A stretch of 37,207 bases of DNA, taken from positions 1 to 37,207 of the forward strand of contig NZ_JALCBM010000038.1 in assembly GCF_028066395.1 (NCBI RefSeq), read 5' to 3'. How positions within the stretch are numbered: position 1 is the stretch's first letter; every line of letters starts with the position of its first letter. The notes below the pieces were generated by a model. That model saw nothing but the letters and a program-made list of their open reading frames with translations, was not told where the DNA came from and did no database searches. This DNA comes from Ruegeria sp. Lineage in GTDB: Bacteria; Pseudomonadota; Alphaproteobacteria; Rhodobacterales; Rhodobacteraceae. Position numbers and translations under genes: made by a program. Positions 4,627-34,466 of the stretch are shown here, piece after piece.

Positions 4627-4666
4627 AATCGGGCTCCTTCGGGAAATAGCGGAGATATTCCCCTTA

Positions 4667-4678
4667 TTTGGATACAAA
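4667..4678. promoter_or_regulatory. Candidate operator (TTTGGATACAAA)
   Basis: This palindrome of the recurring family lies 41 bp from the MttB start and 178 bp from a second site at 4845. It is the exact reverse complement of the site at 13633-13644. It is just inside the left edge of the direct repeat, so the duplicate carries it too. Confidence 0.55.
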
Positions 4679-4826
4679 ATATTGTCTAGGTCAAGTGTTT
4701 GGGGTGAGTTGCGTTGAATTTCTGTATTTGGGGGTATTGGGCGGTAAATATGGGGAATTGGCAGTGGTTTTGCCGGTTTATCACGTCATGTGCGGGTGAT
4801 TTCACGAGGGTTGGATTTTTCGATTG

Positions 4827-4856
4827 TTGACAGGTGTGATCTCATTTGCATACATT
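4827..4856 (+). promoter_or_regulatory. Sigma70-type promoter for the transporter operon, copy 1
   Basis: TTGACA (4827-4832), an 18-bp spacer and TACATT (4851-4856) precede the permease ATG by about 136 bp. The spacing and both hexamers are the same as in the aldolase promoter at 1483-1512. The -10 is covered by a candidate operator. The long leader between here and 4993 has no other gene. Confidence 0.7.
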
Positions 4857-4857
4857 T
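4845..4857. promoter_or_regulatory. Candidate operator (TTTGCATACATTT)
   Basis: The site sits on the -10 of the transporter promoter and matches, in reverse complement, the aldolase site at 1482-1495. Position and pairing with 4667-4678 suggest control by a dimeric repressor. Confidence 0.55.
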
Positions 4858-4992
4858 TGAGTGAGACAGCTACATGTGTAACGGCAAACCAAACGCCCTC
4901 TGACATGATGTCGCGCCGCGGGCCTGATCATCGGGGCCCTGCGGTGGCCATCAGTCGACCGGGGATAAACTGAACAGGGAACACATACCTCA

Positions 4993-5988
4993 ATGTCCGA
5001 ATCACAAGCAGCCAACTGGTTGGACCCGTTTTCCGGCAACGCTCTGCCGATCGCCCAGAACTCCGAAAAGGTCATCATGGATTTCCTGGTGGAGAACCGG
5101 TCGTTCTTCAATGTCATCAAGGAGCCGGTGGAATATCTTCTGGTGAGCCTTGAAAACACGCTGACGGGCTCGCCACCGCTGGTGGTGCTGGCCTGTGCAG
5201 TGCTGATCGCCTGGCAGATGGCGGGGCGCAATCAGGCGATTGTGACCGGGGTTCTGCTGGCCGGTCTGGGCTTTATCGGGCCGGGCATGTGGGAGGCGAC
5301 GATGACCACCATCTCGGTGGTGTTGTGTTCGCTGTTTCTGTGCCTGTTGCTGGGCATTCCGCTGGGCATCTGGGCGGGGTTGAGTGATCGCGCCTATGCG
5401 ATCATGCGGCCGATCCTGGATACGATGCAGACGATCCCGTCCTTTGTGTATCTGGTGCCGGTGGCGATCCTGTTTGGCGTGGGCAACGCGCCGGGCGTGG
5501 TGGTGACGGCGGTGCATGCGCTGCCGCCGGTGATCCGTCTGACGGCGCTGGGTCTGCGGCAGGTGCCCGAGGATGTGATCGAGGCGTCGGCCTCGTTCGG
5601 GGCGACGCCGACGCAGGTTCTGCTGAAGGTGCGTCTGCCGTTGTCGGTGCCCAGTATCATGGTGGGTGTGAACCAGACGCTGATGATGTGCCTGTCGATG
5701 GCGGTTGTTGCGTCGATGATCGCGGTTGGCGGTCTGGGGCTTGAGGTTCTGCGCGCCATTGGCCGTCTGGACGTGGGTCTGGCGATTGTCAGCGGCACGG
5801 GGATCGTGGTTCTGGCGATCATTCTGGACCGGATCACGCAAGGCCCGGTGGAGCTGGCCAAGAAGGACCCGCATCGCAAGTGGTATCAGCACGGCCCGGC
5901 GCGTCTGGTGTGGTTGCTGGTCCGGGGTGTCACCGGCTCGAAGGCGGGTGCGCCCGAGCAGTCGATGGCTGCGGACAGCGCCTCGTGA
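4993..5988 (+). CDS. proW: Betaine-type ABC transporter permease (ProW/OpuAB-like), copy 1
   Basis: A 331-residue inner-membrane permease of the ProW family, with several hydrophobic segments (about residues 57-75, 78-92, 103-125 and more to the C-terminus) and a cytoplasmic EAA loop beginning at about residue 197 (EASASFGATPTQVLLKVRLP), where the ATPase docks. The N-terminal 50 residues are polar and atypical. It would form the channel for a quaternary-ammonium compound delivered by the binding protein encoded 63 bp downstream. The operon order is permease, binding protein, ATPase. It is identical at base level to the gene at 32373-33368. The start ATG follows a weak ribosome site; no better start is available in frame. 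Confidence 0.93.
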   Translation: MSESQAANWLDPFSGNALPIAQNSEKVIMDFLVENRSFFNVIKEPVEYLLVSLENTLTGSPPLVVLACAVLIAWQMAGRNQAIVTGVLLAGLGFIGPGMWEATMTTISVVLCSLFLCLLLGIPLGIWAGLSDRAYAIMRPILDTMQTIPSFVYLVPVAILFGVGNAPGVVVTAVHALPPVIRLTALGLRQVPEDVIEASASFGATPTQVLLKVRLPLSVPSIMVGVNQTLMMCLSMAVVASMIAVGGLGLEVLRAIGRLDVGLAIVSGTGIVVLAIILDRITQGPVELAKKDPHRKWYQHGPARLVWLLVRGVTGSKAGAPEQSMAADSAS

Positions 5989-6051
5989 CCGTCCTGTCCG
6001 GGACCGCTGCGCGGGGAACAATCAGGAAAGAATGCTCATAGGGAGGGCAAC

Positions 6052-7086
6052 ATGAAACGAGTAACACCAAAAGGGCTGACCACCGCGTTTAGCGCGCTGG
6101 CCATCGCCGCAACCGCGCTGACCGCAACCGTGGCCAACGCAGCCGACTATATGACACCAGGCGAAGGGGTAACCGTTCAGCCGATGGGGCCGGGCCTTTT
6201 GCGGCGTCAGATGGAAGAGAAAATCTTCACCCAGGCGTTGCAGGATCTTGGTTATGAAGTCAAACCGACGCTTGATCTGAAATACGCACTGATGTTCCTG
6301 TCGGTCGCCAGCGGTGACGGGGATTTCGCCATCGGGTATGCGCATCCCATCCATATCAAGTATTTTGAAAAAGCTGGCGGTGCCGACAAGCTGACAATGC
6401 TGGAAGAGCCGCTATATGGCCCGATGCCGCAAGCCTATTACATCGACAAGGCGTCCTATGATGCGGGCATCCGCTCGATCGAGGATCTGAAAAAGCCCGA
6501 GAATGCGGCCCGGTTTGATACCGATGGCGATGGCAAGGCTGATCTGGTCGGCTGCCAGCCCGGCTGGGGCTGTGAACGGGCCATCGAACATCATCTGGAC
6601 GCCTATGAGCTGCGCGATCACATCACCCATGTTCAAGGTGAATATGCGGTTGTGATGGCGGATGTCATCGCGCGGGCGCAAAAAGGAAACCCGGTTCTGT
6701 ACTTTGCGTTCAGCCCCTATTGGGTTCACGATATTCTGCGTCAGGGTGAACATGTGGAACGGATCGAGGTGCCGTTTACCTCGGTGCATGACAAGGACAA
6801 TGCAACGGTCGAGGATACCACCGTCGACGGAAAGAATGTCGGACATATTCCCTATAACCGCCATATGGTGGCCAACAAGGAATTCCTGGAAAATAACCCG
6901 GCGATCCGTACCCTGTTCGAAGTTGCCCGCATCGACATCAAGGATATCGAAGCCCAGAACCGGCTGATCCATGAGGGCGAGAAACAGCCCGCAGATATCG
7001 ACCGTCACGTCGAGACCTGGATCTCTGACAACCGCGCAGCCTATGACAGCTGGCTGAAAGCGGCACGCGACGCGGCGGCGAACTGA
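6052..7086 (+). CDS. proX: Betaine-type ABC transporter substrate-binding protein (ProX/OpuAC-like), copy 1
   Basis: A 344-residue periplasmic binding protein. Residues 1-30 form a signal peptide with cleavage after ANA; a GGGAGGG site precedes the ATG. The mature protein has the OpuAC/ProX type-II binding fold. Distinct features are a DxDxDG loop (D156-T-D158-G-D160-G) that resembles an EF-hand calcium loop, and a C168-x5-C174 pair (CQPGWGC) that could form a disulfide. The gapless alignment with the paralogue at 33432 shows about 74 percent identity, with residues 121-180 nearly identical and residues 45-120 and 181-300 varied. That pattern suggests a shared scaffold with altered ligand-binding surfaces. 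The ligand class (betaine, choline, carnitine or similar) is inferred from the family. Confidence 0.92.
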   Translation: MKRVTPKGLTTAFSALAIAATALTATVANAADYMTPGEGVTVQPMGPGLLRRQMEEKIFTQALQDLGYEVKPTLDLKYALMFLSVASGDGDFAIGYAHPIHIKYFEKAGGADKLTMLEEPLYGPMPQAYYIDKASYDAGIRSIEDLKKPENAARFDTDGDGKADLVGCQPGWGCERAIEHHLDAYELRDHITHVQGEYAVVMADVIARAQKGNPVLYFAFSPYWVHDILRQGEHVERIEVPFTSVHDKDNATVEDTTVDGKNVGHIPYNRHMVANKEFLENNPAIRTLFEVARIDIKDIEAQNRLIHEGEKQPADIDRHVETWISDNRAAYDSWLKAARDAAAN

Positions 7087-7106
7087 CCTCTTTGCGAAAC
7101 GAACCG

Positions 7107-7131
7107 GGCCGGCGCCCTGATCGCGCCGGCC
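7107..7131 (+). promoter_or_regulatory. Intercistronic RNA hairpin between proX and proV, copy 1
   Basis: A perfect 9-bp GC-rich stem (7107-7115 with 7123-7131) with loop CCTGATC and no U-tract, so not a classic terminator. It lies in the binding protein-ATPase gap, where such stems commonly protect the 3' end of the abundant binding-protein mRNA. The homologous hairpin at 34481-34507 shows compensating base changes. Confidence 0.7.
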
Positions 7132-7170
7132 TGTCCCCCAGACGCCCTCAACCGTAGCGGACCCGAGCCC

Positions 7171-8241
7171 ATGCAGAACACGAATTCGACCTCTTCCAGC
7201 CCTCTGATCGACCTGCGCGGCGTCTGGAAAATTTTCGGCGCCAATGAACAGGCGGTCTGTCAGGACATCAAGAACCGGGGCCTGTCACGGCAGGAGACGC
7301 TGGAACAGCACAAGGCCGTCATGGCTGTCGCCGATGTCACCCTGCAGATCTATCCCGGCGAGACCTTCTGTGTCATGGGCCTGTCCGGCAGCGGCAAATC
7401 TACCCTGGTACGGTTGATCAACCGTTTGATCCCGCCCACGGCGGGCGAGCTGATGGTCAGCGGCCAGAATGTCAGCACCATGGGTGAAAAAGAGGTCCGT
7501 GCCTTCCGCTCGGCCCGGCTGGGCATGGTGTTCCAGAACGCGGCCCTGCTGCCGCACCGCACGGTGCTGGAAAACACCGCCTTCCCGCTGGAGCTGCGCA
7601 ACATGCCCCGCAAGGACCGCGAAGAGAAAGCCCGCGCCGCGCTGGAACTGGTGCATCTGGCCGGGTGGGAGAGCTATTTCCCCGACCAGCTTTCGGGCGG
7701 CATGCAGCAGCGGGTCGGTCTGGCCCGGGCGCTGGCCTCGGACCCGGAGATTTTGCTGATGGACGAACCCTTCAGCGCGCTGGACCCGATCATCCGGCGC
7801 GACCTGCAGGATGAATTCGTCAATATCGTGAAATCGGTGAACAAGACGGCGGTGTTCATCACCCATGACCTGGATGAGGCGATCCGGGTGGGTGACCGCA
7901 TCGCAGTGATGAAAGACGGTCGGGTGCAGCAGGTGGGCACGCCAGTGGATATCGTCATGACCCCGGCCAATGAACATATTGCCAAATTCGTCTCGGGCGT
8001 CTCGCGCCTGCCGATCCTGACGGCAGCAGATGTGATGGACGAGGCCGCCACGGACGCCCCCCAAAACGATCGCGTGGTTCCGGCCCGCGCGCCGCTCTCG
8101 AACGTCATTGATCGCGCCATTGCCGAGGGCTTCCCCATGGGCATCGAACGGGATGGCAAGATTATTGGACAGATCACCGAAAAAAGCCTGCTGAAATCGA
8201 TCTCAACCCATGAGTTCGAGGCGGTCGCGAAATCGGCGTAA
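7171..8241 (+). CDS. proV: Betaine-type ABC transporter ATP-binding protein (ProV/OpuAA-like)
   Basis: A 356-residue ATPase. Walker A is GLSGSGKST at about residues 70-78, the signature LSGGMQQR at about 174, and Walker B LLMDEP around 194-199, followed by the switch histidine in FITHDLDEA. The C-terminal 90 residues after the nucleotide-binding domain correspond to a shortened regulatory (CBS-type) region of ProV. The insert of about 25 residues before the Walker A strand is typical of ProV-type ATPases. It is the only intact ATPase gene for the two permease/binding-protein sets in this window; the second set keeps just a scar (34535-34645), so this protein probably energises both. Confidence 0.94.
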   Translation: MQNTNSTSSSPLIDLRGVWKIFGANEQAVCQDIKNRGLSRQETLEQHKAVMAVADVTLQIYPGETFCVMGLSGSGKSTLVRLINRLIPPTAGELMVSGQNVSTMGEKEVRAFRSARLGMVFQNAALLPHRTVLENTAFPLELRNMPRKDREEKARAALELVHLAGWESYFPDQLSGGMQQRVGLARALASDPEILLMDEPFSALDPIIRRDLQDEFVNIVKSVNKTAVFITHDLDEAIRVGDRIAVMKDGRVQQVGTPVDIVMTPANEHIAKFVSGVSRLPILTAADVMDEAATDAPQNDRVVPARAPLSNVIDRAIAEGFPMGIERDGKIIGQITEKSLLKSISTHEFEAVAKSA

Positions 8242-8863: not shown

Positions 8864-8867
8864 ATGA
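8814..8867 (+). CDS. Possible 17-codon upstream reading frame coupled to the GntR gene
   Basis: An ATG at 8814 follows GGAGGAG, a better ribosome site than any at the GntR start. It encodes MPKGWKDFGAAKVPKHA and its TGA (8865-8867) overlaps the regulator ATG (8864-8866) as ATGA. The GntR start has no visible ribosome site of its own, so translation may depend on coupling from this leader. No homologue is recognised; the peptide itself may be irrelevant. Confidence 0.45.
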   Translation: MPKGWKDFGAAKVPKHA

Positions 8868-9661
8868 TGAGCAGCGTTGAGATTTTCGAAGCCGTCGCGT
8901 TTTCGCGCGAAAGCCCGTTTGATGCGCAGGCGGACCCCGGGACACGCAACCGCAAGAACGCAAACCGGGATGAGCTGTTCAAGCAGTTGAAACTGGATTT
9001 GCTGCGCGCAACTTTCGAACCCGGTGAACGTCTGATCGAAGAACGGCTGGCCGAACGTCTGGGCGCCAGCCGAACTCCCGTGCGCGAGGTTTTGACACGG
9101 CTGGCCAGTGAAGGGCTGATCGGGACGCGGGGCCGGTCCTACGTGGCGCTTCAGGTGCCGACGGCGACCCTGAAAGAAGTGTTCGAGGTGCGCAAGGCGC
9201 TGGAGATTCTGGCCATCGGTGAGGCTGCGAAGCTGAAGACTGACGCCGGGATGGAAAGCATCTCGCGCGCGATGGAGACGATGCGCGACAGCCATGCCCG
9301 GGGCGACTGGCTGGCGACCAACGCGGCGGACAGCCTGTTTCACCTAAGCATCGCCGAGATGTCCAAAAACAAGACATTGTTCGACGCGCTGTGCCAGATC
9401 CACGAACGGGTGCTGCTGATCCGCAATCAGTTCTTTGCCAACAAGACCTTGCAGACAGTTGCGCTGGAAGAGCATGACAGAATCTTCGACGCGATCGCGC
9501 GCGGGGCCAAAGGTGTGGCGCGGGCCGAGATTGAGCATCATATCGATGGTACGATCAACAAGTTCATGCGCCGTCTGGACGGGCAGGACGCAGAGGAAGA
9601 GACCCCTGCAAACGATCATCGCCCGACCGAAAAAATTACGGCATCCGGCGGCGGTATGTGA
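8864..9661 (+). CDS. GntR-family transcriptional regulator, FCD subfamily
   Basis: A 265-residue regulator. The N-terminal winged helix (about residues 35-97) contains the typical block ERLAERLGASRTPVREVLTRL. The C-terminal FCD domain (about 103-235) keeps the metal/ligand residues D156, H160, H204 and H226. A flexible tail of about 25 residues follows. The first 34 residues are an unusual extension. FCD proteins are usually ligand-released repressors of adjacent catabolic genes, binding palindromes with TTG/CAA-type half-sites. This makes it the leading candidate for the recurring TTG-NATN-CAA sites in the island, although that link is not shown by sequence alone. It sits between the transporter operon and an SDR gene. 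Confidence 0.9.
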   Translation: MMSSVEIFEAVAFSRESPFDAQADPGTRNRKNANRDELFKQLKLDLLRATFEPGERLIEERLAERLGASRTPVREVLTRLASEGLIGTRGRSYVALQVPTATLKEVFEVRKALEILAIGEAAKLKTDAGMESISRAMETMRDSHARGDWLATNAADSLFHLSIAEMSKNKTLFDALCQIHERVLLIRNQFFANKTLQTVALEEHDRIFDAIARGAKGVARAEIEHHIDGTINKFMRRLDGQDAEEETPANDHRPTEKITASGGGM

Positions 9662-13613: not shown

Positions 13614-13642
13614 TTGACGGAAGATGTAAAGATTTGTATCCA
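13614..13642 (+). promoter_or_regulatory. Sigma70-type promoter for the HcnABC-like operon, with overlapping operator
   Basis: TTGACG (13614-13619), a 17-bp spacer and TATCCA (13637-13642). The TTTGTATCCAAA palindrome (13633-13644) covers the -10, the same arrangement as at 1483-1512 and 4827-4856. Confidence 0.55.
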
Positions 13643-13644
13643 AA
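13633..13644. promoter_or_regulatory. Candidate operator (TTTGTATCCAAA)
   Basis: The exact reverse complement of the site at 4667-4678. It overlaps the -10 of the rightward promoter. Confidence 0.55.
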
Positions 13645-17702: not shown

Positions 17703-17725
17703 GAAAGCGCCCGAGTGTCGCTTTC
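17703..17725 (+). terminator. Weak hairpin upstream of the second MttB gene
   Basis: A 7-bp stem (GAAAGCG with CGCTTTC) and a 9-nt loop, followed by an AT-rich stretch without a true T-run. It may be an attenuator or RNA-stability element in the 159-bp gap before the MttB-family gene. Confidence 0.3.
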
Positions 17726-17801
17726 TGCAAATTTATTTCGGAATCCTGAAAGAACCCGCCTGCGCGCGCCATTTATATGGCTTCAGGAGGAGCGTATCGA
17801 C

Positions 17802-19358
17802 ATGACAAACTCTGCCACCGCCACACGATCCCGCGCAGGTGGGCGATCCGCCCGCCGGGCGGAACGGACCGCGCCGAAATTCGACATGCTGCCCGGCCTG
17901 ACCCGCAACCTGCCGGTGACCGAGGTCATGGACGGGTCTCAGGTGGAACGGATCGACGCGGCCTCGATGGATATCCTTGAAAATGTCGGCGTCCAGTTCC
18001 GCGACCCGATTGCGCTGGAGGATTGGAAGCGCGCAGGGGCCAAGGTCGAGGATGAGATGGTCTATCTGGATCGCGGCCTTGTGCGCGAACTGATCGCGAC
18101 CATCCCCGGCAATTTCACCTATCATGCTCGCGATCCGCAAAAGAACGTGCGTTTGGGCGGGCGTCATTCGATCTTTGTGCCGATGACTGGCGCGCCTTTC
18201 CTGCGCGATCTGGACGATGTGCGCCGCAATCCGACGCTGGACGATCTGGCGATGTTTCACAAGCTCAGCCATATGCTGCCCGCGCTGCATTCTTCAGCGC
18301 ACCATATTGTTGAACCCTATGATCACCCGATCAGCCAGCGGCATCTGCGGATTACCTATTCCTCGATGAAATATTCGGACAAGACGTTCATGGGCATGAC
18401 CACCAGCCCCAAGAACGCCGAGGATGTGATGGACATGTGCGCCATCTTGTTCGGGGCCGAGTTCATGGAGAGCCACCCTGTCACCACAGGCAATTGCAAC
18501 GGCAATTCCCCGTTGGTCTGGGACGAAACCATGTTGGGCGCAATGCGCGCCTTTTGCCGCCGCAACCAGCCGGTACTGTGCTCACCCTTCGTGCTGGGCG
18601 GAGCCAATACGCCCGCCAGCGTTCCGGCTACCGTCGCGCAACTGAATGCCGAGGCGCTGAGCGCGCTGGCCTATACGCAGGTCATCCGCAAGGGCGCGCC
18701 CGCGATTTATGGGCATTACCTGTCGACGGTGTCGATGAAATCCGGCGCGCCGATGGCGGGCACGCCTGAAATCAGCCTGATGAACTTCATGATCGGTCAG
18801 ATGGCGCGGTATTACGATGTGCCCTGGCGCACCTCGAACACGCTGGGCGGGGCCAAGACGTTTGATGCGCAGGCGGGATATGAATCGGCCACGACGCTGC
18901 AGGCGGTGATCCATTCCGGGGCCAACTATATCTGGCACTCGGCAGGCTGGAACGAGGCCGGGATGCATTGTTCCACCGCCAAGTTCATCGTCGATGCGGA
19001 ACAATGCGCGATGGCCTATTGCATGGCCGAAGGACCAAAATGGGACGATTTCGATCAGGCCCTTGCAGCCGTGCCGGATGTGGGTCCGGGCGGACATTAT
19101 CTGGGCCATCCCCATACGCAGGAGAATTTCCAGCAGGCGTTCTTCATGCCCGAGTTGTTCGACAACAACTCGATCGAACAATGGGTGGCCGAAGGCGAGG
19201 TCGAGATCACCGAGCGCGCGCTGACCCGGGCGAAAAAGCTGCTGGCTGAATATCAGGAGCCCACGCTAGACATGGCCAAAAACGAAGAGCTGCTGGAGTA
19301 CATCGCCCGGCGCGAGCGGGAAATCCCCGCCGCAGATGAGTTGAACCAGACCTATTAA
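17802..19358 (+). CDS. MttB-family (trimethylamine methyltransferase-like) protein, non-pyrrolysine, copy 2
   Basis: A 518-residue MttB-superfamily protein. An AGGAGGA site lies about 10 nt before the ATG at 17802, which is preferred over the longer frame from 17715. Like copy 1 it has a basic Arg/Gly N-terminal tail (TRSRAGGRSARRAER) and no in-frame TAG. The shared core includes VSMKSGAP and GQMARYYDVPWR, but the two copies are well diverged, including near the expected barrel centre, so they probably act on different substrates. It lies at the end of the HcnABC-GhrA block, suggesting demethylation feeds the dehydrogenase. No corrinoid partner is encoded in the window. Confidence 0.88.
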   Translation: MTNSATATRSRAGGRSARRAERTAPKFDMLPGLTRNLPVTEVMDGSQVERIDAASMDILENVGVQFRDPIALEDWKRAGAKVEDEMVYLDRGLVRELIATIPGNFTYHARDPQKNVRLGGRHSIFVPMTGAPFLRDLDDVRRNPTLDDLAMFHKLSHMLPALHSSAHHIVEPYDHPISQRHLRITYSSMKYSDKTFMGMTTSPKNAEDVMDMCAILFGAEFMESHPVTTGNCNGNSPLVWDETMLGAMRAFCRRNQPVLCSPFVLGGANTPASVPATVAQLNAEALSALAYTQVIRKGAPAIYGHYLSTVSMKSGAPMAGTPEISLMNFMIGQMARYYDVPWRTSNTLGGAKTFDAQAGYESATTLQAVIHSGANYIWHSAGWNEAGMHCSTAKFIVDAEQCAMAYCMAEGPKWDDFDQALAAVPDVGPGGHYLGHPHTQENFQQAFFMPELFDNNSIEQWVAEGEVEITERALTRAKKLLAEYQEPTLDMAKNEELLEYIARREREIPAADELNQTY

Positions 19359-19375
19359 GGTAAAGACCCCGAACT

Positions 19376-19405
19376 GGCCCGCCGCTGCTTTGGCGGGCCT
19401 TTTTT
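19376..19405 (+). terminator. Rho-independent terminator after the second MttB gene
   Basis: A perfect 8-bp stem (GGCCCGCC at 19376-19383 with GGCGGGCC at 19392-19399), an 8-nt loop and six T residues at 19400-19405. It closes the 13851-19358 operon 17 bp after the stop codon. Confidence 0.92.
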
Positions 19406-19450
19406 GTGATAGGCATTGCAAAATGGGTGTCTCAAAGGGGGAGGGTATCG

Positions 19451-20182
19451 ATGGATCTTGCCGGAAAAACGGCTCTGGTAACCGGCGCGACCGGGGGGAT
19501 CGGTTCTGCGATTGTCGAACGGCTGCGTAGCGCGGGCGCGCGCGTCGCTGTTGCAGACCGTGTGGTGGATGGTATCCCAGCCGAGGTGCATCTGCCCGGC
19601 GATCTGCTGGACCCCGAATATGCGGACGGTCTGCCCGGCGTTGCCGCAGACCGGCTCGGTGGGCTTGATATCGTCATTAATAATGCCGGGGTGATTTCGC
19701 GGGGGCCGGTCACCGACACCTCTGATCAGGATTGGGCCCTGTCGCTGGGCGTGAATGTCGAGGCCCCGTTTCGCATCTGCCGTGCGGCCATTCCGATCAT
19801 GGCTGACGCTGGTGGCGGTGCAATCGTCAACACGGCCTCGTGCTGGGGTTTGCGTCCCGGCCCCAATCACGCGGTCTATTGCATGACCAAGGCAGCGGTT
19901 GCATCGCTGACCCAGTGCATGGGGATGGATCACGCGCATCAGGGCATCCGCATCAACGCCGTCTGCCCGAATGAGGTGAACACACCGATGCTGCGCTCGG
20001 GCTTTGAACAGCGGGGGTTTGATCCTGACACCGCCGTGGCTGAACTGGGTCAGACCGTGCCGATTGGCCGTATCGCCGAACCCGAGGACATTGCCGATGT
20101 CGTCATGTTCCTTATCTCGGATGCTGCGCGCTATGTCTGCGGCGCATTGGTCGAGGTGAACGGAGGCAAACCCGTCTCATGA
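19451..20182 (+). CDS. SDR-family oxidoreductase
   Basis: A 243-residue classical SDR. The cofactor motif TGATGGIG is at 11-18, NNAG at 77-80, and the catalytic S130, Y143 and K147 are intact. The ATG at 19451 is chosen because GGGGGAGG lies just ahead; the frame is open to 19406 but that part runs into the terminator. It begins 46 bp after the terminator's T-run, so it is expressed by its own promoter or by readthrough. The substrate is unknown; an alcohol/ketone step in the same catabolic programme is likely. Confidence 0.9.
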   Translation: MDLAGKTALVTGATGGIGSAIVERLRSAGARVAVADRVVDGIPAEVHLPGDLLDPEYADGLPGVAADRLGGLDIVINNAGVISRGPVTDTSDQDWALSLGVNVEAPFRICRAAIPIMADAGGGAIVNTASCWGLRPGPNHAVYCMTKAAVASLTQCMGMDHAHQGIRINAVCPNEVNTPMLRSGFEQRGFDPDTAVAELGQTVPIGRIAEPEDIADVVMFLISDAARYVCGALVEVNGGKPVS

Positions 20183-20251
20183 TACGGGCTCTGCGGCAAA
20201 GGGGTTCTGGTTGCGGGCGGGGCCGTGACAGTGTCTGGCTTGTCATAACAC

Positions 20252-21592
20252 TCATTCCTTGCCCGACCGCCATTCCTTCCAGATCAGATAGCTGTTTATC
20301 CCCAGTGACGCGAAGGGTTCCGGTGGCAGGCGCGGCGGGTCCGGTTGTGCCAGAAAATGGTCCGCGATCTCTGATCCGCGTTGCAGCACCAATTCGGCCA
20401 CGCCCATGCCTTGCAACGTCCCCCGGGCGATGCCCAGCCCGTTCTGGCAGCAGGCCGAAAACACCCCGTCCTCAATTTCGCCAAACGCAGCCGAGCCATT
20501 GCGGCTCAGGCACAGCATTCCCGCCCAGCGATGCTCCATCTTCACATCGGGCAGATGTGGAAAGCGCTCGGTGAACTTGCGGTTATGCACCCAGCCCGCG
20601 TTGCGCAGCCGCATCTGGCTGGTTTCGATGGTCGGATGAAAGCTGGACCCGGTGCGGATCAGGATGCGGTCACCATAGCTGCCGGACACCCGCCGGACCG
20701 ACGTCCCCATCGGATTCGCCGGCGTCACTGACCAGCGCGACTGACCGCCCAGCGTGTCGATCTGCGCCTTGCTCAGGGGTGCCGAGATCGAGGCGTAGAG
20801 ACAGATATGCATCAACTGCCGCTGGTAGAACCCAAAGCTTTCCAGATGGCCGTTATTGGCCAGAATGATCCGCCCGGTGCTGACCTGCGCCTTATCCGTT
20901 CTGACCACCCAGCCTGCGCCCTGTTTTTCAAATCTGGTGACCGGGGAATTTTCGAACGCGTCGATCTGCCGGGCCAGCCGGGCCGACAGCGCCCGCACAT
21001 AAGCCGCAGGCTGGATCATGACCGTTCCCGGCGCATAAAGCCCCGAGGTGTAATGCGGGCTGCCCGTGATCTCATGCATTTGCTGCTGGTCATAGAGCGT
21101 ATGCGGCTCACCCAGTTTGGCCAGGTGCTCGGCAAAGGCGCGATTATGCGCGTCGCCCTTTCTGGTGGCGGCTGCGTTGAACTTGCCGCAGGGGTCGAAA
21201 ATGTCCTGCGGAAGGTCGCATTCAGCGGCCACCTCGGTTGCAAATGCGATGGCCTTGCGGTTCAGCGCAATGGCCTTGCGGTCCGCTTCCAGCGCGTCGC
21301 CTGCGTAATTATCCGAGGCCAGGTCATGCGGCAGGTCGATCATGAACCCCGAGTTTCGCCCTGCCGAGCCTTCTGCAAAACGCCCCGCTTCCAGCAGAAC
21401 AACCTTCAGCGACGGATCAAGTTGCAGCAGTCGCCGCGCGGTGCTGAGCCCCGCGAACCCGCCGCCGACGATGGTGATGTCGGCGGTCAGGTCATGATCA
21501 AGGACCGGCAGGGGTGTCTGGGGTGGCAGGATGGCATTCCATCCGGCCCGCCCTGTCTGCCGGGGCAGTCTCTTGGCTTCGTGCCGCGTCAA
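20252..21592 (-). CDS. FAD-dependent oxidoreductase, PuuB-like (DAO family)
   Basis: A 446-residue flavoprotein with GGGFAG at 43-48 (FAD) and GSAGRNSGFMIDLPHD around 74-90, as in gamma-glutamylputrescine oxidase and related amine oxidases. Such enzymes oxidise a primary or secondary amine to an aldehyde or imine plus ammonia or a methylamine. The ATG overlaps the stop of the aldehyde dehydrogenase gene (ATGA), so amine oxidation and aldehyde oxidation are coupled in one transcript with a DapA-family gene. It could also serve as an N-demethylase, since sarcosine oxidase-type relatives do so. Confidence 0.88.
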   Translation of the reverse strand: MTRHEAKRLPRQTGRAGWNAILPPQTPLPVLDHDLTADITIVGGGFAGLSTARRLLQLDPSLKVVLLEAGRFAEGSAGRNSGFMIDLPHDLASDNYAGDALEADRKAIALNRKAIAFATEVAAECDLPQDIFDPCGKFNAAATRKGDAHNRAFAEHLAKLGEPHTLYDQQQMHEITGSPHYTSGLYAPGTVMIQPAAYVRALSARLARQIDAFENSPVTRFEKQGAGWVVRTDKAQVSTGRIILANNGHLESFGFYQRQLMHICLYASISAPLSKAQIDTLGGQSRWSVTPANPMGTSVRRVSGSYGDRILIRTGSSFHPTIETSQMRLRNAGWVHNRKFTERFPHLPDVKMEHRWAGMLCLSRNGSAAFGEIEDGVFSACCQNGLGIARGTLQGMGVAELVLQRGSEIADHFLAQPDPPRLPPEPFASLGINSYLIWKEWRSGKE

Positions 21593-23085
21593 TCCACGGC
21601 CTCGTCCGCGTCGTCGGCCAGATCGATCCAGATGGTTTTCAGCTGGGTGTATTGGTCATGGGCATGGACCGAGTTGTCGCGTCCGCCGAACCCCGACTGC
21701 TTGTAGCCGCCGAAGGGCGTGGTGATGTCGCCCTCACCAAAGCTGTTGACCGTGACTGTCCCGGCCCGGATGGCCCGCGCGCCGCGAATGGCGCGTTTGA
21801 CATTGGCCGTGAAGATCGAAGCGCAGAGGCCGTATTCCGTGTCATTGGCGATCTGGATGGCCTCGTCAAAGCCCGAGACCTCGATCACGCTCAGCACCGG
21901 GCCGAAGATTTCCTCGCGTGCGAGGGTGGCGTCGTTGCCGGGCACTTCGACCACCGTGGCCTCGACAAAGCCGTTTTCGGCCTTGCCGCCGATCACCACA
22001 TTCTCGGCCTGATCCAGATAGCCGCAGACCTTGTTGTAATGCCCTTCGCTGACCAGCGCGCCCATGCGGGTTTCGGGGTCCAGCGGGTCGCCCACATTCC
22101 ACTGTTTGGCGTGATGGGCGATGCGCTCCAGCAATTCAGCCTTTACATCCTTATGCACGATCAGGCGGGAGCTGGCCGAGCAGTTCTCACCCATATTCCA
22201 AAACGCGCCATTGACCACATGCTGCGCTACGCGGTCCAGGTTTTCGGCATCCTCCATGACCACGGCGGGGTTCTTGCCGCCCATTTCCAGCACCACTTCC
22301 TTGGCGTTGCTCTCCGCCGCATAGGTCAGGAACCGCTTGCCGGTGACAGTCGAGCCGGTGAAGGACACCATGTCGATATCCATGTGCCGCCCGATGGGCT
22401 CGCCCACCTGCGCGCCACTGCCCGGAACCACATTCAGAACGCCGCGCGGCAGCCCGGCCTCGGCCGCCAGTTCGGCGACGCGCAGGGCGGTCAGCGTGGT
22501 CTCGGCTGCCGGTTTCAGCACAATAGAACAGCCTGCGGCCAAGGCAGGCCCGATCTTCCACGCCAGCATCAGCAGCGGGAAGTTCCAGGGCAGCACCAGA
22601 CCCACGACGCCAATCGGTTCGCGCACCACCATGGCGATGTGGTCATCGCTGGCGGGTGAGACCTGATCGTACAGCTTGTCGATTGCCTCGGCATGCCATT
22701 TCAGGCAATGGATGGTCTCGGGCACATCGACGGTTTCGCAATCATAGATGGTCTTGCCGCTGTCGATGCTTTCCATCACCGCCAATTCGCGCGCATTTCG
22801 GGTCATCAGCTTGGCGAACCGGATCAGCACATCCTTGCGGTCCGATGGGTGCATCTTGGACCAACGGCCATCGTCAAACGCCTCGCGCGCTTTGGTCACG
22901 GCGAAATCAACGTCATCCGCGTTACAGGCGGCGATGCGGGTCAGTTCCTCACCCGTTGCGGGGTTTGTCGAGACAAAAGTCTCTCCCGAGATCGCGGGGC
23001 GATAACCGCCGTCGATGAAGGCGCCGTTGGGCAGCGAAAGGCCAGCGGCGATGGATTTGTATTCGTCTTGCGTCAGCAATGTCAT
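21589..23085 (-). CDS. Aldehyde dehydrogenase family protein (PuuC/betaine-aldehyde type)
   Basis: A 498-residue NAD(P)-dependent aldehyde dehydrogenase. The catalytic cysteine is C302 (GENCSASS), with the general-base Glu in LEMGGKN. PWNFPLLM and the C-terminal PFGGYKQSGFGGRDNSVHA fit the PuuC-like/gamma-aminobutyraldehyde group. The ATG at 23085 follows GAGG within the last codons of the upstream gene and gives the family's usual length; the longer frame to 23115 would overlap the DapA-family gene. It is encoded between a DapA-family protein and a PuuB-like oxidase, so the aldehyde probably comes from the flavoenzyme. Confidence 0.93.
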   Translation of the reverse strand: MTLLTQDEYKSIAAGLSLPNGAFIDGGYRPAISGETFVSTNPATGEELTRIAACNADDVDFAVTKAREAFDDGRWSKMHPSDRKDVLIRFAKLMTRNARELAVMESIDSGKTIYDCETVDVPETIHCLKWHAEAIDKLYDQVSPASDDHIAMVVREPIGVVGLVLPWNFPLLMLAWKIGPALAAGCSIVLKPAAETTLTALRVAELAAEAGLPRGVLNVVPGSGAQVGEPIGRHMDIDMVSFTGSTVTGKRFLTYAAESNAKEVVLEMGGKNPAVVMEDAENLDRVAQHVVNGAFWNMGENCSASSRLIVHKDVKAELLERIAHHAKQWNVGDPLDPETRMGALVSEGHYNKVCGYLDQAENVVIGGKAENGFVEATVVEVPGNDATLAREEIFGPVLSVIEVSGFDEAIQIANDTEYGLCASIFTANVKRAIRGARAIRAGTVTVNSFGEGDITTPFGGYKQSGFGGRDNSVHAHDQYTQLKTIWIDLADDADEAVD

Positions 23086-23089
23086 GACC

Positions 23090-24007
23090 TCAGCCCTCTG
23101 CCACGATGTCGGCAATTGTCCGTTTCAACACGCGCGTCACCTGTTCCAGCGCACGTTTGTCATCCTTGTTCAGCCCCTTCAGCGGCGGGCGGACCCGACC
23201 GGCCTCGATCCCGTTCATGATGACCCCGTGCTTGATGGTCTGGATGAACTTGCCGCCTTGTTCCAGCACCCGCATCAGCGGCATCATCGCCGACATGATG
23301 CGGCGACCTTTGGCGAAATTGCCCTGCACCACGCAGGCGTCATACAGCGCGACATGTTCAGCAGGTAGAAAGTTCGAGCCGCCACAGACCCAGAATGGCG
23401 CGCCCCAGGCGAAAAACTCCAGCGCCTGATCGTCCATCCCGCAGCCCATCTGGATATGCGGATAGTCCCGGGCCAGCAGATGCACCCGGTTGATATCGCC
23501 CGAGCTTTCCTTGATGCCACAGAAATTCCGGCTGCGACCCACGCGGTCCAAGAATTCCTCACCCATCATGGTGCCGGTACGGTGCGGATAGTTATACAGC
23601 ATCACCGGCAGGTCGGCGGCCTTGTCGATGGCCAGCGCGTTCAGCGCGTTTTCGCGGTCGGTGGGCACCGAATAGGGCGGGCTGGCCAGCAGGATCGCAT
23701 CCGCCCCGATCTCACGCGCGCCCGAGGCCAGTGCGATGGAGTCCGGCGTCAGCATTGCGCCGGTGCCCACGACCAGCGGCAGGCGGGATTTCAACCTCTC
23801 ACGAGTAAACCGCGCCAGTTCCAGCCGCTCTTCGACGGTCTGAGCATAGTTCTCGCCGGTCGAGCCGCCCGAGATCAGGCCGTGCACGCCGTTTTCGATC
23901 AGAAATTCGATCACCTCGGCCAGGGCGTCCCAATTGACGCTGCCATCAACGTGATAGGGGGTAACGACAGGCGTATATATCCCGTCAAAGCGGAAAATTG
24001 GGGTCAT
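23090..24007 (-). CDS. Dihydrodipicolinate synthase (DapA) family lyase or deaminase
   Basis: A 305-residue TIM-barrel aldolase with the Schiff-base lysine K166 (CGIKESSGD), the Tyr Y138 in YNYPHRTG, and GSTGE at 48-52. Those features define the class I pyruvate-dependent lyase/deaminase superfamily, not the specific reaction. True DapA is unlikely, because the gene sits in a catabolic operon with an aldehyde dehydrogenase and a PuuB-like oxidase. Family alternatives include 4-hydroxy-2-oxoglutarate-type aldolases, 5-dehydro-4-deoxyglucarate dehydratase and the pyrroline-4-hydroxy-2-carboxylate deaminase of hydroxyproline breakdown. A GAGG site precedes the ATG. It is divergent from the GlxA-like regulator. 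Confidence 0.9.
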   Translation of the reverse strand: MTPIFRFDGIYTPVVTPYHVDGSVNWDALAEVIEFLIENGVHGLISGGSTGENYAQTVEERLELARFTRERLKSRLPLVVGTGAMLTPDSIALASGAREIGADAILLASPPYSVPTDRENALNALAIDKAADLPVMLYNYPHRTGTMMGEEFLDRVGRSRNFCGIKESSGDINRVHLLARDYPHIQMGCGMDDQALEFFAWGAPFWVCGGSNFLPAEHVALYDACVVQGNFAKGRRIMSAMMPLMRVLEQGGKFIQTIKHGVIMNGIEAGRVRPPLKGLNKDDKRALEQVTRVLKRTIADIVAEG

Positions 24008-24333: not shown

Positions 24334-24343
24334 AGTATACAAT
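24334..24343. promoter_or_regulatory. Candidate operator (AGTATACAAT)
   Basis: A second copy of the GTATACAATAT repeat, 84 bp (about eight helical turns) after the first, in the same orientation. Direct-repeat placement would suit AraC-type binding as well as GntR-type. Confidence 0.45.
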
Positions 24344-24443
24344 ATGAGTGAAAGTAGCGCGACGGGCAGAGTTGGAGCGGCCTGCCGTTGCATAGACAGC
24401 CTTGCCCGCTGGTGTCGGGCAGATGCGCAATAGGGTGTAGGAG

Positions 24444-29352: not shown

Positions 29353-29367
29353 CCCGGCAGGGGGTCA
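29350..29367. terminator. Palindrome that contains both convergent stop codons
   Basis: TGACCC (29350-29355) and GGGTCA (29362-29367) form a 6-bp stem; the left TGA is the stop of the PanE-like gene and the right TCA is the reverse stop of the dehydrogenase gene. No T-run follows, so termination strength is doubtful. Confidence 0.3.
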
Positions 29368-30327
29368 GTATCCCAGCTTGAGATTAACCGAATGGGGCAG
29401 GTCCTCGCCCCGCTGATAATGCTCCAGCGCCTCACCAAACCGGGTCACGACCCGCTCGACATAGCGCGAGGTCGCCCCGGCGATGTGTGGCGAGAGGATG
29501 ACATTCTCCATCGCCCAAAGCGGGTTGACCTTGGGCAGCGGTTCCTGCTCGAACACGTCCAGCGCAGCACCTGCGATCTGACCGGATTGCAGCGCCTCGA
29601 TCAGGGCCGCTTGATCAACGATATCACCGCGCCCGACATTGATCAGAAAGGCGCTGTCCTTCATCAGTCTGAACGCATCTGCCCCCAGAAACTGACGCGT
29701 CCCGTCCGTGCCCGGCAGCGCCAGCACGACGAAATCGCAACGCGGCAGGAAATCCGCCAACTGGTCCGGGGCATAGACCTGATCGACATGTGGCGTGGCC
29801 CGCGCGCTACGTCGCATCCCCAGCACCGTCATCCCGAACCCGGTGGCGCGCCGTGCGATATCCTGCCCGATTGAGCCCAGCCCGATGACCCCAACGGTGA
29901 ATTCCTCCAGCGGAGGCGTCTTGAAATGATCCCAAACGCCCGCCCGCTGATCATCGATCAACTTGCGCACGTTCCAGTGCAGCATCAGCACCGCCCCCAT
30001 CGCGTAATCCGCGACCGAAGGCCGCCCGGCGAAGTTCGTCACCGTGACCCCCTGCAGGTGGTTGCGCGCGGGCAGCAGCGCATCCACGCCAGCGGTTACA
30101 TAGTGAATCCATTTCAGCGATGTGGCTTCCTTCAGCGCCTCAACCGGGGGCCGGAAACACACCAGAATCTCGGTGTCCGGGATCATTGGCGCAAGGGTTT
30201 CCGGGTCTGATGCGACTGACGCGTTCAACTCGGGGAACTCTCTGCCGAGAACCCGATAATATTCCGCCGCTGTCTCGGGGTCGGGGTGATAGACCGTGAC
30301 ATTCGGATAAGCGTTTCTTCGATCCAT
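29365..30327 (-). CDS. D-2-hydroxyacid dehydrogenase (paralogue 2)
   Basis: A 320-residue NAD(P)-dependent dehydrogenase. The cofactor motif GLGSIG occurs in FTVGVIGLGSIGQDIARR, followed by INVGRGDIVDQAAL (catalytic Arg), DVFEQEPLP (Glu) and LSPHIAGATSRY (His). The ATG at 30327 with GGAAG ahead is chosen over the in-frame TTG just before it. The closest relative in the window is the gene at 34743 (shared PPLEEFT, GVDAL, MLHWN blocks). It ends the SDR-aldolase-dehydrogenase operon, and its likely job is interconversion of a 2-oxo acid and a D-2-hydroxy acid. Confidence 0.92.
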   Translation of the reverse strand: MDRRNAYPNVTVYHPDPETAAEYYRVLGREFPELNASVASDPETLAPMIPDTEILVCFRPPVEALKEATSLKWIHYVTAGVDALLPARNHLQGVTVTNFAGRPSVADYAMGAVLMLHWNVRKLIDDQRAGVWDHFKTPPLEEFTVGVIGLGSIGQDIARRATGFGMTVLGMRRSARATPHVDQVYAPDQLADFLPRCDFVVLALPGTDGTRQFLGADAFRLMKDSAFLINVGRGDIVDQAALIEALQSGQIAGAALDVFEQEPLPKVNPLWAMENVILSPHIAGATSRYVERVVTRFGEALEHYQRGEDLPHSVNLKLGY

Positions 30328-31231: not shown

Positions 31232-31966
31232 TCAGGGCAGGCTAAGCTTGACCATGCGGCCGCCATCCACCGTGTAGACGTGACCGGTGACAAAGCCGGA
31301 TTCCTCGGCGGCCAGAAAGGCGATAAGGGCGGCGACATCTTCGGGTTTTCCGGTTCTGCCCACGGGGTGTATCTTGCTGAGCCCGCGCAGCAGGGCATCG
31401 GGATTCTCGTGCGACTGAATGAAATCGACATTCAGGTCGGTGTCGATCCAACCCGGGGCCACGGCGTTGCACCGGATGCCTTCCCCGCCGTGGTCGACCG
31501 CAACCGCGCGGGTCAACCCGTGCAGTCCGGATTTGGTCGCGCAATAGGCCGCATGCAGCGGGTTGGCGCCAATGCCCTCGGTCGAGCCGACATTCACGAT
31601 GCTGCCCTTTGTGGCGCGCAGATGCGGCAGCGCGGCCTTGATCAGCAAGAAGGGCGTCGTCAGATTGACGGTCAGGTTGCGTTCCCACTGGTCGAGGGTC
31701 ATGTCCTCGACCTTTATCTCCTGCATCATGCCGGCGTTGTTGACCAGAACATCCAGCCGTCCGGCCCGGTCGATCACGTCCGAGATCACCTGATGTGGGC
31801 TTTGCGTGTCGCTGAAATCGGCGCTGATCGCTTCAAATTCGGGGTCATCCCCCCGTTGTGCGGTAAAGACGCGCGCACCTTCGTCGCGGAGCCTTTGCGC
31901 GACAGCCCGGCCAATGCCACTGCGACCGCCGGTGACAAGCGCCACCTTGCCTTCAAACCTGGTCAT
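31232..31966 (-). CDS. SDR-family oxidoreductase
   Basis: A 244-residue classical SDR with TGGRSGIG at 12-19, NNAG at 76-79, and catalytic S128, Y141 and K145 all present. Its ATG is 74 bp from the left edge of repeat copy 2 and has AAGGAG ahead. The repeat places a duplicated divergent promoter region in front of this gene, in the same position the MttB-family gene holds at copy 1. The gene heads a minus-strand operon with aldolase and dehydrogenase genes. Confidence 0.92.
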   Translation of the reverse strand: MTRFEGKVALVTGGRSGIGRAVAQRLRDEGARVFTAQRGDDPEFEAISADFSDTQSPHQVISDVIDRAGRLDVLVNNAGMMQEIKVEDMTLDQWERNLTVNLTTPFLLIKAALPHLRATKGSIVNVGSTEGIGANPLHAAYCATKSGLHGLTRAVAVDHGGEGIRCNAVAPGWIDTDLNVDFIQSHENPDALLRGLSKIHPVGRTGKPEDVAALIAFLAAEESGFVTGHVYTVDGGRMVKLSLP

Positions 31967-32046
31967 CGTCTTGCCGCTCCTTGCTGCCGGGTGGTGTCAC
32001 TCTTTGCCCGATCCGTGCCCTGTGGCTGGATTTCAATCTGCCCTTA

Positions 32047-32058
32047 TTTGGATACAAA
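32047..32058. promoter_or_regulatory. Candidate operator (TTTGGATACAAA), repeat copy 2
   Basis: Same site as 4667-4678, now 81 bp before the SDR gene on the minus strand. Confidence 0.5.
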
Positions 32059-32206
32059 ATATTGTCCAGGTCAAGTGTTTGGGGTGAGTTGTGCTGAATT
32101 TCTGTATTTGGGGGTATTGGGCGGTAAATATGGGGAATTGGCAGTGGTTTTGCCGGTTTATCACGTCATGTGCGGGTGATTTCACGAGGGTTGGATTTTT
32201 CGATTG

Positions 32207-32237
32207 TTGACAGGTGTGATCTCATTTGCATACATTT
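32207..32237 (+). promoter_or_regulatory. Sigma70-type promoter with overlapping operator, repeat copy 2
   Basis: TTGACA (32207-32212), 18 bp, TACATT (32231-32236), with TTTGCATACATTT at 32225-32237 across the -10. Identical to copy 1, so both transporter operons should respond to the same signal. Confidence 0.7.
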
Positions 32238-32372
32238 TGAGTGAGACAGCTACATGTGTAACGGCAAACCAAACGCCCTCTGACATGATGTCGCGCCGCG
32301 GGCCTGATCATCGGGGCCCTGCGGTGGCCATCAGTCGACCGGGGATAAACTGAACAGGGAACACATACCTCA

Positions 32373-33368
32373 ATGTCCGAATCACAAGCAGCCAACTGGT
32401 TGGACCCGTTTTCCGGCAACGCTCTGCCGATCGCCCAGAACTCCGAAAAGGTCATCATGGATTTCCTGGTGGAGAACCGGTCGTTCTTCAATGTCATCAA
32501 GGAGCCGGTGGAATATCTTCTGGTGAGCCTTGAAAACACGCTGACGGGCTCGCCACCGCTGGTGGTGCTGGCCTGTGCAGTGCTGATCGCCTGGCAGATG
32601 GCGGGGCGCAATCAGGCGATTGTGACCGGGGTTCTGCTGGCCGGTCTGGGCTTTATCGGGCCGGGCATGTGGGAGGCGACGATGACCACCATCTCGGTGG
32701 TGTTGTGTTCGCTGTTTCTGTGCCTGTTGCTGGGCATTCCGCTGGGCATCTGGGCGGGGTTGAGTGATCGCGCCTATGCGATCATGCGGCCGATCCTGGA
32801 TACGATGCAGACGATCCCGTCCTTTGTGTATCTGGTGCCGGTGGCGATCCTGTTTGGCGTGGGCAACGCGCCGGGCGTGGTGGTGACGGCGGTGCATGCG
32901 CTGCCGCCGGTGATCCGTCTGACGGCGCTGGGTCTGCGGCAGGTGCCCGAGGATGTGATCGAGGCGTCGGCCTCGTTCGGGGCGACGCCGACGCAGGTTC
33001 TGCTGAAGGTGCGTCTGCCGTTGTCGGTGCCCAGTATCATGGTGGGTGTGAACCAGACGCTGATGATGTGCCTGTCGATGGCGGTTGTTGCGTCGATGAT
33101 CGCGGTTGGCGGTCTGGGGCTTGAGGTTCTGCGCGCCATTGGCCGTCTGGACGTGGGTCTGGCGATTGTCAGCGGCACGGGGATCGTGGTTCTGGCGATC
33201 ATTCTGGACCGGATCACGCAAGGCCCGGTGGAGCTGGCCAAGAAGGACCCGCATCGCAAGTGGTATCAGCACGGCCCGGCGCGTCTGGTGTGGTTGCTGG
33301 TCCGGGGTGTCACCGGCTCGAAGGCGGGTGCGCCCGAGCAGTCGATGGCTGCGGACAGCGCCTCGTGA
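32373..33368 (+). CDS. proW: Betaine-type ABC transporter permease (ProW/OpuAB-like), copy 2
   Basis: Base-identical to the gene at 4993-5988 and so encodes the same 331-residue permease. Complete sequence identity alongside a strongly diverged binding-protein gene shows that the copies are kept identical by recent transfer. The product should accept either binding protein and pair with the single intact ATPase. Confidence 0.95.
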   Translation: MSESQAANWLDPFSGNALPIAQNSEKVIMDFLVENRSFFNVIKEPVEYLLVSLENTLTGSPPLVVLACAVLIAWQMAGRNQAIVTGVLLAGLGFIGPGMWEATMTTISVVLCSLFLCLLLGIPLGIWAGLSDRAYAIMRPILDTMQTIPSFVYLVPVAILFGVGNAPGVVVTAVHALPPVIRLTALGLRQVPEDVIEASASFGATPTQVLLKVRLPLSVPSIMVGVNQTLMMCLSMAVVASMIAVGGLGLEVLRAIGRLDVGLAIVSGTGIVVLAIILDRITQGPVELAKKDPHRKWYQHGPARLVWLLVRGVTGSKAGAPEQSMAADSAS

Positions 33369-33431
33369 CCGTCCTGTCCGGGACCGCTGCGCGGGGAACA
33401 ATCAGGAAAGAATGCTCATAGGGAGGGCAAC

Positions 33432-34466
33432 ATGAAACGAGTAACACCAAAAGGGCTGACCACCGCGTTCGGCGCGCTGGCCATCGCCGCAACAGCGCTG
33501 ACCGCAACCGTCGCCAACGCAGCCGACTATATGACACCGGGCGAAGGGGTGACCGTACAGCCCACAGGCCCCGGATTTCTGCGCACGCAACTGGAGGAAG
33601 AGGTTGTCATTCGCGGTTTGAAAGAGCTGGGATATGACGTGAAAGAGCCCCTGCACCTGAAATATGCGCTGATGTTTCTAACTGTGGCCAGCGGCGACGC
33701 GGATTATGCGGCCGGATATGCGCATCCCTTGCATCAGGCCTTTTTCGACAAGGCGGGCGGCGACCAGAGCCTGAAAATCACCGAAACGGCGCTGTATGGT
33801 CCGATGCCGTCGGCGTACTATGTGGACAAGGCATCTTATGACGCGGGCATCCGCTCGATCGAGGATCTGAAGAAGCCCGAGAATGCTGCTCGGTTTGACA
33901 CCGATGGCGATGGCAAGGCGGATCTGGTCGGCTGCCAGCCCGGCTGGGGCTGCGAACGGGCCATCGAACATCACATGGACGCCTATGAGCTGCGTGACCA
34001 TGTCACCCATGTGCAGGGCGAATATGCGGTTTTGATCGCCGACGTTGTTGGCCGGGTCGGGCAGAATGACCCGGTTCTTTACTATGCATGGCGCCCCTAT
34101 TGGGTGAACAACATCCTCAAGCAGGGGGTCGAGGTCGAGCGTCTGGAGGTGCCCTTCACCTCGGTCGGCGATGACCCGAGCATTACCGCCGAGCAGACCA
34201 CGATTGACGGCAAGAACCTGGGTCACCTTCCGTTCAATCGCCATTTGGTATCCAACAAGGATTTCCTGGAAAACAACCCGGCGGCTGCGACGTTCATTGA
34301 ACTGGCGCAGATACCGATCGAGGATATCGAGGCGCAGCGCCTGCTGATTTATCAGGGTGAAAAACAGCCCGAAGATATTGAGCGGCATATCACGACCTGG
34401 ATCTCCGACAACCGCGAGGCTTATGACAGTTGGCTGAAAGCGGCGCGCGACGCGGCGACGAACTGA
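33432..34466 (+). CDS. proX: Betaine-type ABC transporter substrate-binding protein (ProX/OpuAC-like), copy 2
   Basis: A 344-residue periplasmic protein, colinear without gaps with the copy at 6052 and about 74 percent identical by hand count (88 differences). The signal peptide differs at one residue. Residues 121-180, including the DxDxDG loop (156-161) and C168/C174, differ at only two positions. Differences cluster in 45-120 (for example GPGFLRTQLEEEV, and AAGYAHPLHQAFF) and 201-225 (YAWRPYWVNN in place of FAFSPYWVHD), where aromatic ligand cages of this family are usually built. It is therefore likely to bind a different but related ligand. Confidence 0.92.
   Translation: MKRVTPKGLTTAFGALAIAATALTATVANAADYMTPGEGVTVQPTGPGFLRTQLEEEVVIRGLKELGYDVKEPLHLKYALMFLTVASGDADYAAGYAHPLHQAFFDKAGGDQSLKITETALYGPMPSAYYVDKASYDAGIRSIEDLKKPENAARFDTDGDGKADLVGCQPGWGCERAIEHHMDAYELRDHVTHVQGEYAVLIADVVGRVGQNDPVLYYAWRPYWVNNILKQGVEVERLEVPFTSVGDDPSITAEQTTIDGKNLGHLPFNRHLVSNKDFLENNPAAATFIELAQIPIEDIEAQRLLIYQGEKQPEDIERHITTWISDNREAYDSWLKAARDAATN

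Follow-up and report, generated by a model that had tools for sequence, protein, structure and literature searches.

Two ProU-type importer operons in a Ruegeria draft genome share a promoter-permease block that looks like the product of ordinary gene copying

The draft genome of a Ruegeria sp. (4.33 Mb, 140 contigs, 89.7% complete) carries two putative ProU-type importer operons that flank a catabolic gene cluster and share a long direct repeat, the subject of this report. The DNA analyzed, hereafter the window, spans bases 1-37207 of the 43,039-bp scaffold C40, and its right end (37207) abuts a 100-N scaffold gap. The operon gene order is permease-binding protein-ATPase, with the ATPase gene of operon 2 reduced to a remnant (Table 1). 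The repeat covers the front of both operons and ends within the genes for the binding proteins, SBP1 and SBP2.

Table 1. Positions of the repeat copies, importer genes and neighboring features in the window
Feature	Position	Strand	Evidence or remark
Repeat copy 1: divergent promoter region, whole permease gene, first ~43 binding-protein codons	4661..6180	+	
Repeat copy 2, content as in copy 1	32041..33560	+	
Exact 1375-bp core, copy 1	4715..6089	+	One edge in the window's k=55 graph
Exact 1375-bp core, copy 2	32095..33469	+	
TTTGGATACAAAA motif, left edge of copy 1	4667..4679	+	
TTTGGATACAAAA motif, left edge of copy 2	32047..32059	+	
Permease 1, ProW-like (BPD_transp_1)	4993..5988	+	Pfam and family profiles
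Permease 2	32373..33368	+	Identical to permease 1 as assembled
Binding protein SBP1, ProX-like (OpuAC)	6052..7086	+	
Binding protein SBP2	33432..34466	+	74% identical to SBP1
SBP1 patch nearer to SBP2 than its surroundings, holding the conserved CQPGWGCE loop	6463..6615	+	144/153 nt identical; fourfold sites differing, 3/23
Complete operon-1 ATPase, proV family	7171..8241	+	
Operon-2 ATPase remnant, start region fused in frame to C-terminal end	34538..34645	+	963 bp shorter than the operon-1 gene
GntR/FCD regulator downstream of operon 1	8864..9661	+	Pfam
Catabolic block between the repeats, conserved in relatives (MttB-family methyltransferase, SDR, FAD oxidoreductase, ALDH, DHDPS-family enzyme)	17715..24007	.	

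A preliminary description of this DNA had claimed base-identical direct repeats 27,380 bp apart. Upon recomputation, the cores of the two copies agree at 1375/1375 bases, with 0 mismatches, on the same strand and at an offset of 27,380 bp. Chance was rejected as the source of this exact match, the length of which is far past chance expectation. On the left, the similarity sets in sharply at 4661 (3 mismatches in 4661-4714; 54 bp, 94% identical), and the copies show no similarity before that position. At the right border it decays from 6090, with 7 mismatches in 6090-6180 (92% identical), and then drops to ~73%; beyond this border the two binding-protein genes run parallel, with 661/903 bases identical. 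This was the only direct-repeat family reported in the repeat scan (at least 40 bp, seed 16), and apart from it, 55-mers recur on the scaffold only at the N gap, namely the one found on both its sides and the gap itself. Searching the draft genome with the 1520-bp repeat returned four matches at E 0.001, consisting of the two copies and two partial matches (70 and 73%).

The binding proteins are identical at 256/344 residues and thus differ by 25.6%, which agrees with the ~26% protein difference downstream of the repeat stated earlier; past residue 43, 214/301 residues are identical. At fourfold degenerate sites, the copies differ at 0/209 positions in the permease gene and at 0/9 in the first 13 binding-protein codons, at 5/22 in 6091-6180, and at 49/82 in the binding-protein gene beyond residue 43 and outside a patch of closer similarity (Table 1). 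The fourfold difference in this patch is lower than in the rest of the gene (Fisher p 9e-5, for a patch picked after the profile was seen), which may reflect strong constraint or another conversion tract of older date. In a tree of 25 binding-protein rows (SBP1, SBP2 and the 23 that matched among 24 hand-picked fetched loci), SBP1 and SBP2 form an exclusive sister pair with 100/100 support and a stem length of 0.86, and the nearest other binding protein to SBP1 across 394 genomes of the family (own included) is 49% identical. Because the permease genes are identical whereas the binding-protein genes have diverged at fourfold sites, the permease block is far younger than the split of the binding proteins, which calls for a recent event, either gene conversion or a copying of the block. 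The preliminary description had left the choice between gene conversion and selection to keep the permease and its promoter the same. Conversion or recent copying is favored by the contrast of 0/209 with 49/82 fourfold sites; selection alone was rejected as the cause of the identity, as fourfold and non-coding positions are identical as well and selection at the protein level cannot explain this. Paralogous sequence lies to the right of the tract (binding-protein gene and ATPase remnant), with no similarity left of 4661. Judged on the sequence, recent gene conversion has probably made the repeat identical, or nearly so, in two old paralogous operons.

Assignment of the operons to the ProU/ProVWX glycine betaine importer type rests on profile comparisons, in which the Pfam scan was confined to the window and covered 30 of its open reading frames (ORFs), all but a few short ones. 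SBP1 exceeds the curated cut-off for ProX (NF008334, 359.7 bits against a cut-off of 215), and both binding proteins match E. coli ProX (PDB 1r9l) at E 4.2e-72 and 2.5e-73, SBP2 having been compared with PDB sequences only. The operon-1 ATPase passes the proV-family cut-off (TIGR01186, 341.4 bits against 326.6) and lies below that of the narrower ProV equivalog (NF007480, 301.6 of 444). The permease falls below the ProW equivalog cut-off (NF008196, 353.6 bits vs 439) and by this profile is ProW-like, not ProW itself. The system resembles ProU/ProVWX in its ProX-like binding proteins, ProW-like permease and proV-family ATPase, and it differs in gene order, in the missing ATPase of operon 2 and in one motif residue. 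Both SBP1 and SBP2 retain PGWGC and PYWV in the 25-row alignment, whereas the tryptophan of xxWxxLH, present in 22/23 of the other rows and replaced by tyrosine in one, is alanine in both. We take the tryptophans of PGWGC, PYWV and xxWxxLH to be the aromatic-box positions of ProX. Given the alanine in both proteins, SBP1 and SBP2 probably bind a ligand different from glycine betaine.

In operon 2, SBP2 is followed by 276 bp (34467-34742) and then by a 2-hydroxyacid dehydrogenase gene. This interval resembles the spacer between binding-protein and ATPase genes plus the start of the ATPase gene in operon 1: aligning 7081-7480 with 34461-34760 gives a score of 44, whereas 200 letter shuffles reach 33.5 at most. 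It also matches the 3' end of the ATPase gene at 27/28 bp. The remnant forms a single 35-codon frame ending in ...AEGVPMGIEQSLPKSISIPESEAL, and the intact ATPase has ...AEGFPMGIER...SLLKSISTHEFEAVAKSA. These traces indicate that operon 2 formerly had an ATPase gene, of which ~0.96 kb has since been lost. Permease 2 and SBP2 are thus left without an ATPase in their own operon, and it is likely that the one complete ATPase serves two permease/binding-protein units with different ligand preference. Selection for sameness of permease and promoter is not required to explain the identity, although such a loss offers a plausible reason for the permeases staying alike.

The history that we favor would begin with two old paralogous ProU-type quaternary-amine importer operons flanking a betaine-type catabolic cluster. 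Operon 2 has lost most of its ATPase gene, and recent ectopic gene conversion would have homogenized ~1.4 kb comprising the promoter, the permease gene and the signal-peptide end of the binding-protein gene. The outcome would be two importers alike in promoter type and permease, with a single ATPase and two receptors.

Several observations weigh against this history. The left border between similarity and no similarity is sharp (4661), so that conversion either stopped at the limit of homology or the block came by insertion. The margins are less alike than the core, with the first 54 bp at 94% and the right border zone at 92% before the fall to ~73%. Both the read type and the assembler are inferred. 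ATPase sharing is inferred solely from the missing ATPase of operon 2, and an ATPase encoded elsewhere, such as the one on contig C101 (50% identity), could serve instead. Lastly, no strain or species sharing the arrangement was found for comparison. The preliminary description had proposed comparing the copies in related genomes, and that comparison came up empty among the genomes searched: searching 101 genomes at the DNA level (own included) yielded, outside the own genome, only partial matches of 63-93% identity, in 58 genomes; mttB1 and 2HADH3 (E 1e-150 and 1e-100) were found only in the own genome among 196 (own included); and of the 449 plasmid-collection records with a match at E 1e-40, none had a permease reaching 60%. 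The genome contig collection gave 41 loci, the best at 54%. Because the same arrangement was not found elsewhere, integrated and empty states could not be compared.

The printed identity must also be read in light of how the genome was assembled. The first 55 bases of C40 equal the first 55 bases of C106, its last 55 bases recur in C86, and the 100-N gap at the right end of the window has exactly 55 identical bases on both sides. These three 55-bp overlaps seem to be the marks of short-read de Bruijn assembly at k=55, the final k in the default series of metaSPAdes. Besides C106, the first 400 bases of C1-C19 (of the 140 contigs) were checked among themselves and against C40, the first 12 kb of C24 and the last 20 kb of C101; no 25-mer was shared except by C40 and C106, which is a weak test given the remaining ends and the contigs outside this set. 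Because the genome has the look of assembly from short reads at k=55, a repeat that was copied or collapsed, which the preliminary description had itself named as its refutation, is a live concern. In the k=55 graph of the window, the core ends are the sole branch points. Identical 56-mer sets result from the linear form, from a tandem duplication and from a chromosome accompanied by a 27.4-kb circle. Outside the core the copies share no exact run of at least 55 bp, all others being at most 32 bp, and every mismatch that the assembly shows falls where no 55-mer is common to both copies. From the k-mer comparison and the general behavior of such assemblers, we infer that the core is one graph edge with two entries and two exits, walked twice by the assembler. 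With the core probably a single edge, the identity of copy 2 is no independent measurement, and because the edge was probably walked twice, the pairing of left and right flanks is assembly output and unmeasured; on a single replicon they can pair in two ways, giving the integrated or the excised form.

How much divergence such a graph could hide was estimated with 4000 random draws per divergence level, in which differences were spread evenly over the core, a bulge span limit of 110 bp was assumed and draws placing any difference within 55 bp of either end of the core were discarded. All differences lay in closable bulges in 87% of 1336 kept draws at 1% divergence, in 31% of 433 at 2%, and in 6% of 132 at 3%. 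Isolated differences between the copies may therefore have been merged, and "identical" may stand for roughly 98-100%. We accordingly entertain, tentatively, an alternative in which the permease copies are similar and not identical, or the flanks are mispaired, the graph having merged the copies and one consensus having been printed twice as the assembler traversed a two-edge loop. This alternative, which covers hidden true differences or wrong pairing, overlaps with the gene-conversion reading. The three end overlaps, the lack of long exact runs outside the core and the shares of draws with all differences in closable bulges speak for an assembly effect. Passages of PMC8021871 state that metaSPAdes collapses larger bulges than the isolate mode and that metagenome library fragments are below 1,000 bp. 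The same passages describe strain paths for repeat resolution and the use of long reads, by which metaSPAdes may have resolved the repeat correctly, and they report fewer over-collapsed repeats than with MEGAHIT in one comparison (PMC8021871).

EF-Tu and 16S served as controls. No EF-Tu above the cut-off was found in the own genome; 7/14 control genomes have it, and 4 of the remainder are archaea (3/10 bacterial controls lack it). Across 21 genomes compared at E 1e-150 (own, 12 of the same genus and 8 of the same class, read types unspecified), EF-Tu was absent from the own genome and was present among the 12 same-genus relatives in two copies in one (G001, with 4 contigs), in one copy in two (one of them at a contig end) and in none of the other nine, and among the eight same-class genomes in one copy in three and not in five. 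No 16S gene was found in the own genome by a model that found it in only 9/14 control genomes. The two EF-Tu copies in the 4-contig congener and their lack in nine of the same-genus relatives fit long identical repeats dropping out of short-read drafts and are only supporting, as the EF-Tu and 16S controls are weak. Set against an assembly effect is the divergence of the neighboring genes: permease genes ~27% diverged in DNA, like the binding-protein genes, would hardly share 55-mers and could not have merged, so the strong similarity of the two blocks is real. In addition, flank-specific sequence enters the core on all four sides as assembled, and the assembler and read type are presumed rather than documented.

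A recent segmental duplication appears rather unlikely as an alternative to gene conversion. It would have copied the promoter-permease-5' binding-protein segment upstream of SBP2 (or SBP1), into a target without an earlier permease, and by the same doubtful account it would have joined by homology on the binding-protein side and by illegitimate recombination at 4661. The sharp left border, past which homology is absent, and the right border within homologous binding-protein sequence are as this account predicts. Operon 2, however, retains its ATPase remnant, which suggests a once fuller operon that probably had its own permease, and segmental duplication differs from conversion chiefly in history.

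The preliminary description had further claimed that recombination between the copies could excise the interval as a 27.4-kb circle or duplicate it in tandem, with copy number varying in the population. Such events are possible in principle: direct repeats of 1.4 kb suffice as a recombination substrate, and the excised and integrated forms have the same 56-mer sets. Nevertheless, the claim went unsupported: the draft genome holds no third copy of the repeat (1520-bp query, E 0.001), the Pfam scan of 30 window ORFs reported neither an integrase nor a transposase family, the window has no tRNA, and no empty-site relative occurred among the genomes searched. No circle junction or empty site was seen in the draft genome, where k-mer content is uninformative, being the same for every form. 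An excisable or amplifiable unit, in which inter-copy recombination frees a circle with the catabolic cluster or duplicates it in a mixed population, is thus very improbable in our judgment. We give even less credence to the printed contig being a two-edge assembly loop for a mixed population with the betaine-catabolism block integrated in some cells and present as a 27.4-kb circle or tandem in others; if it were, the identical permease-promoter block would be both the recombination site and the part making either state a working uptake operon, and after excision SBP2 would be driven by the left promoter and permease, with SBP1 and the ATPase staying on the circle.

The catabolic block that lies between the repeats has a complete or near-complete counterpart in six further genomes of the fetched neighborhoods (L028 Epibacterium, L029 Tritonibacter and the same-genus G002, G017, G049 and G051). 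Identities to these are 88-90% for the methyltransferase (which in G017 lies outside the stretch fetched), 85-95% for ALDH, 85-92% for the DHDPS-family enzyme, 81-83% for SDR2 where seen and 51-81% for the FAD oxidoreductase. Five of the six (not G049) have a GntR-ATPase-permease-binding protein cassette between the DHDPS-family gene and AraC; this cassette is missing here at 24007-24444, and two permease-binding protein operons of another lineage flank the block. An SDR gene at 31232-31966, adjoining copy 2, is 72-73% identical to a relative's SDR sited in the conserved block beside SDR2; as it lies here 11 kb from SDR2, the block looks rearranged. Operon 2 is also flanked by an inverted paralogous pair of 2-hydroxyacid dehydrogenase genes (29363-29788 and 35264-35689) with 73% complementary DNA and 58% protein identity. 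Passages of the literature on homarine, betaines and MttB (PMC12478193, PMC13390433, PMC10030565) established no match to the cluster that would name its substrate.

The TTTGGATACAAAA motif at the left edge of both copies has a similar counterpart at 13632-13644, upstream of an aminotransferase gene. Within 2 mismatches there are 4 matches against 0.35 expected, the fourth lying inside SBP2. It is possible that the motif is an operator of the island's GntR/FCD regulator.

Duplicate genes kept similar through conversion have a precedent in the tuf genes of Salmonella, which passages of PMC5485169 describe as maintained by non-reciprocal transfer in continuous tracts. The likeness lies in two gene copies kept similar through such tracts. 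Unlike tuf, the tract here spans promoter and permease and ends within the next gene, whose paralogs are far diverged, and the present case comes from the sequence of one draft genome. Several quaternary-amine binding proteins per transporter core are likewise described for Pseudomonas, where the extra binding proteins CaiX and BetX use the CbcXWV core, according to a passage of PMC8938411. By the same passage, the CaiX and BetX operons have no transporter genes (PMC8938411), whereas the extra binding protein here comes with a permease copy, and only the ATPase is missing. Separately, a Cyanothece-labelled draft (L031:6611-10978) has three tandem ProX-like binding-protein genes ahead of one permease, likewise several receptors per permease.

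A simple check for such findings follows: where the contig ends of a draft genome overlap by a fixed k, an exact direct repeat exceeding the length of a short-read fragment carries no measured identity or order. For these importers, ordinary copying between related genes looks like the explanation of the shared identical stretch, and the locus would represent a clean case of partial homogenization, in which promoter and permease are alike, the ligand-recognizing part has diverged and one ATPase has been lost.

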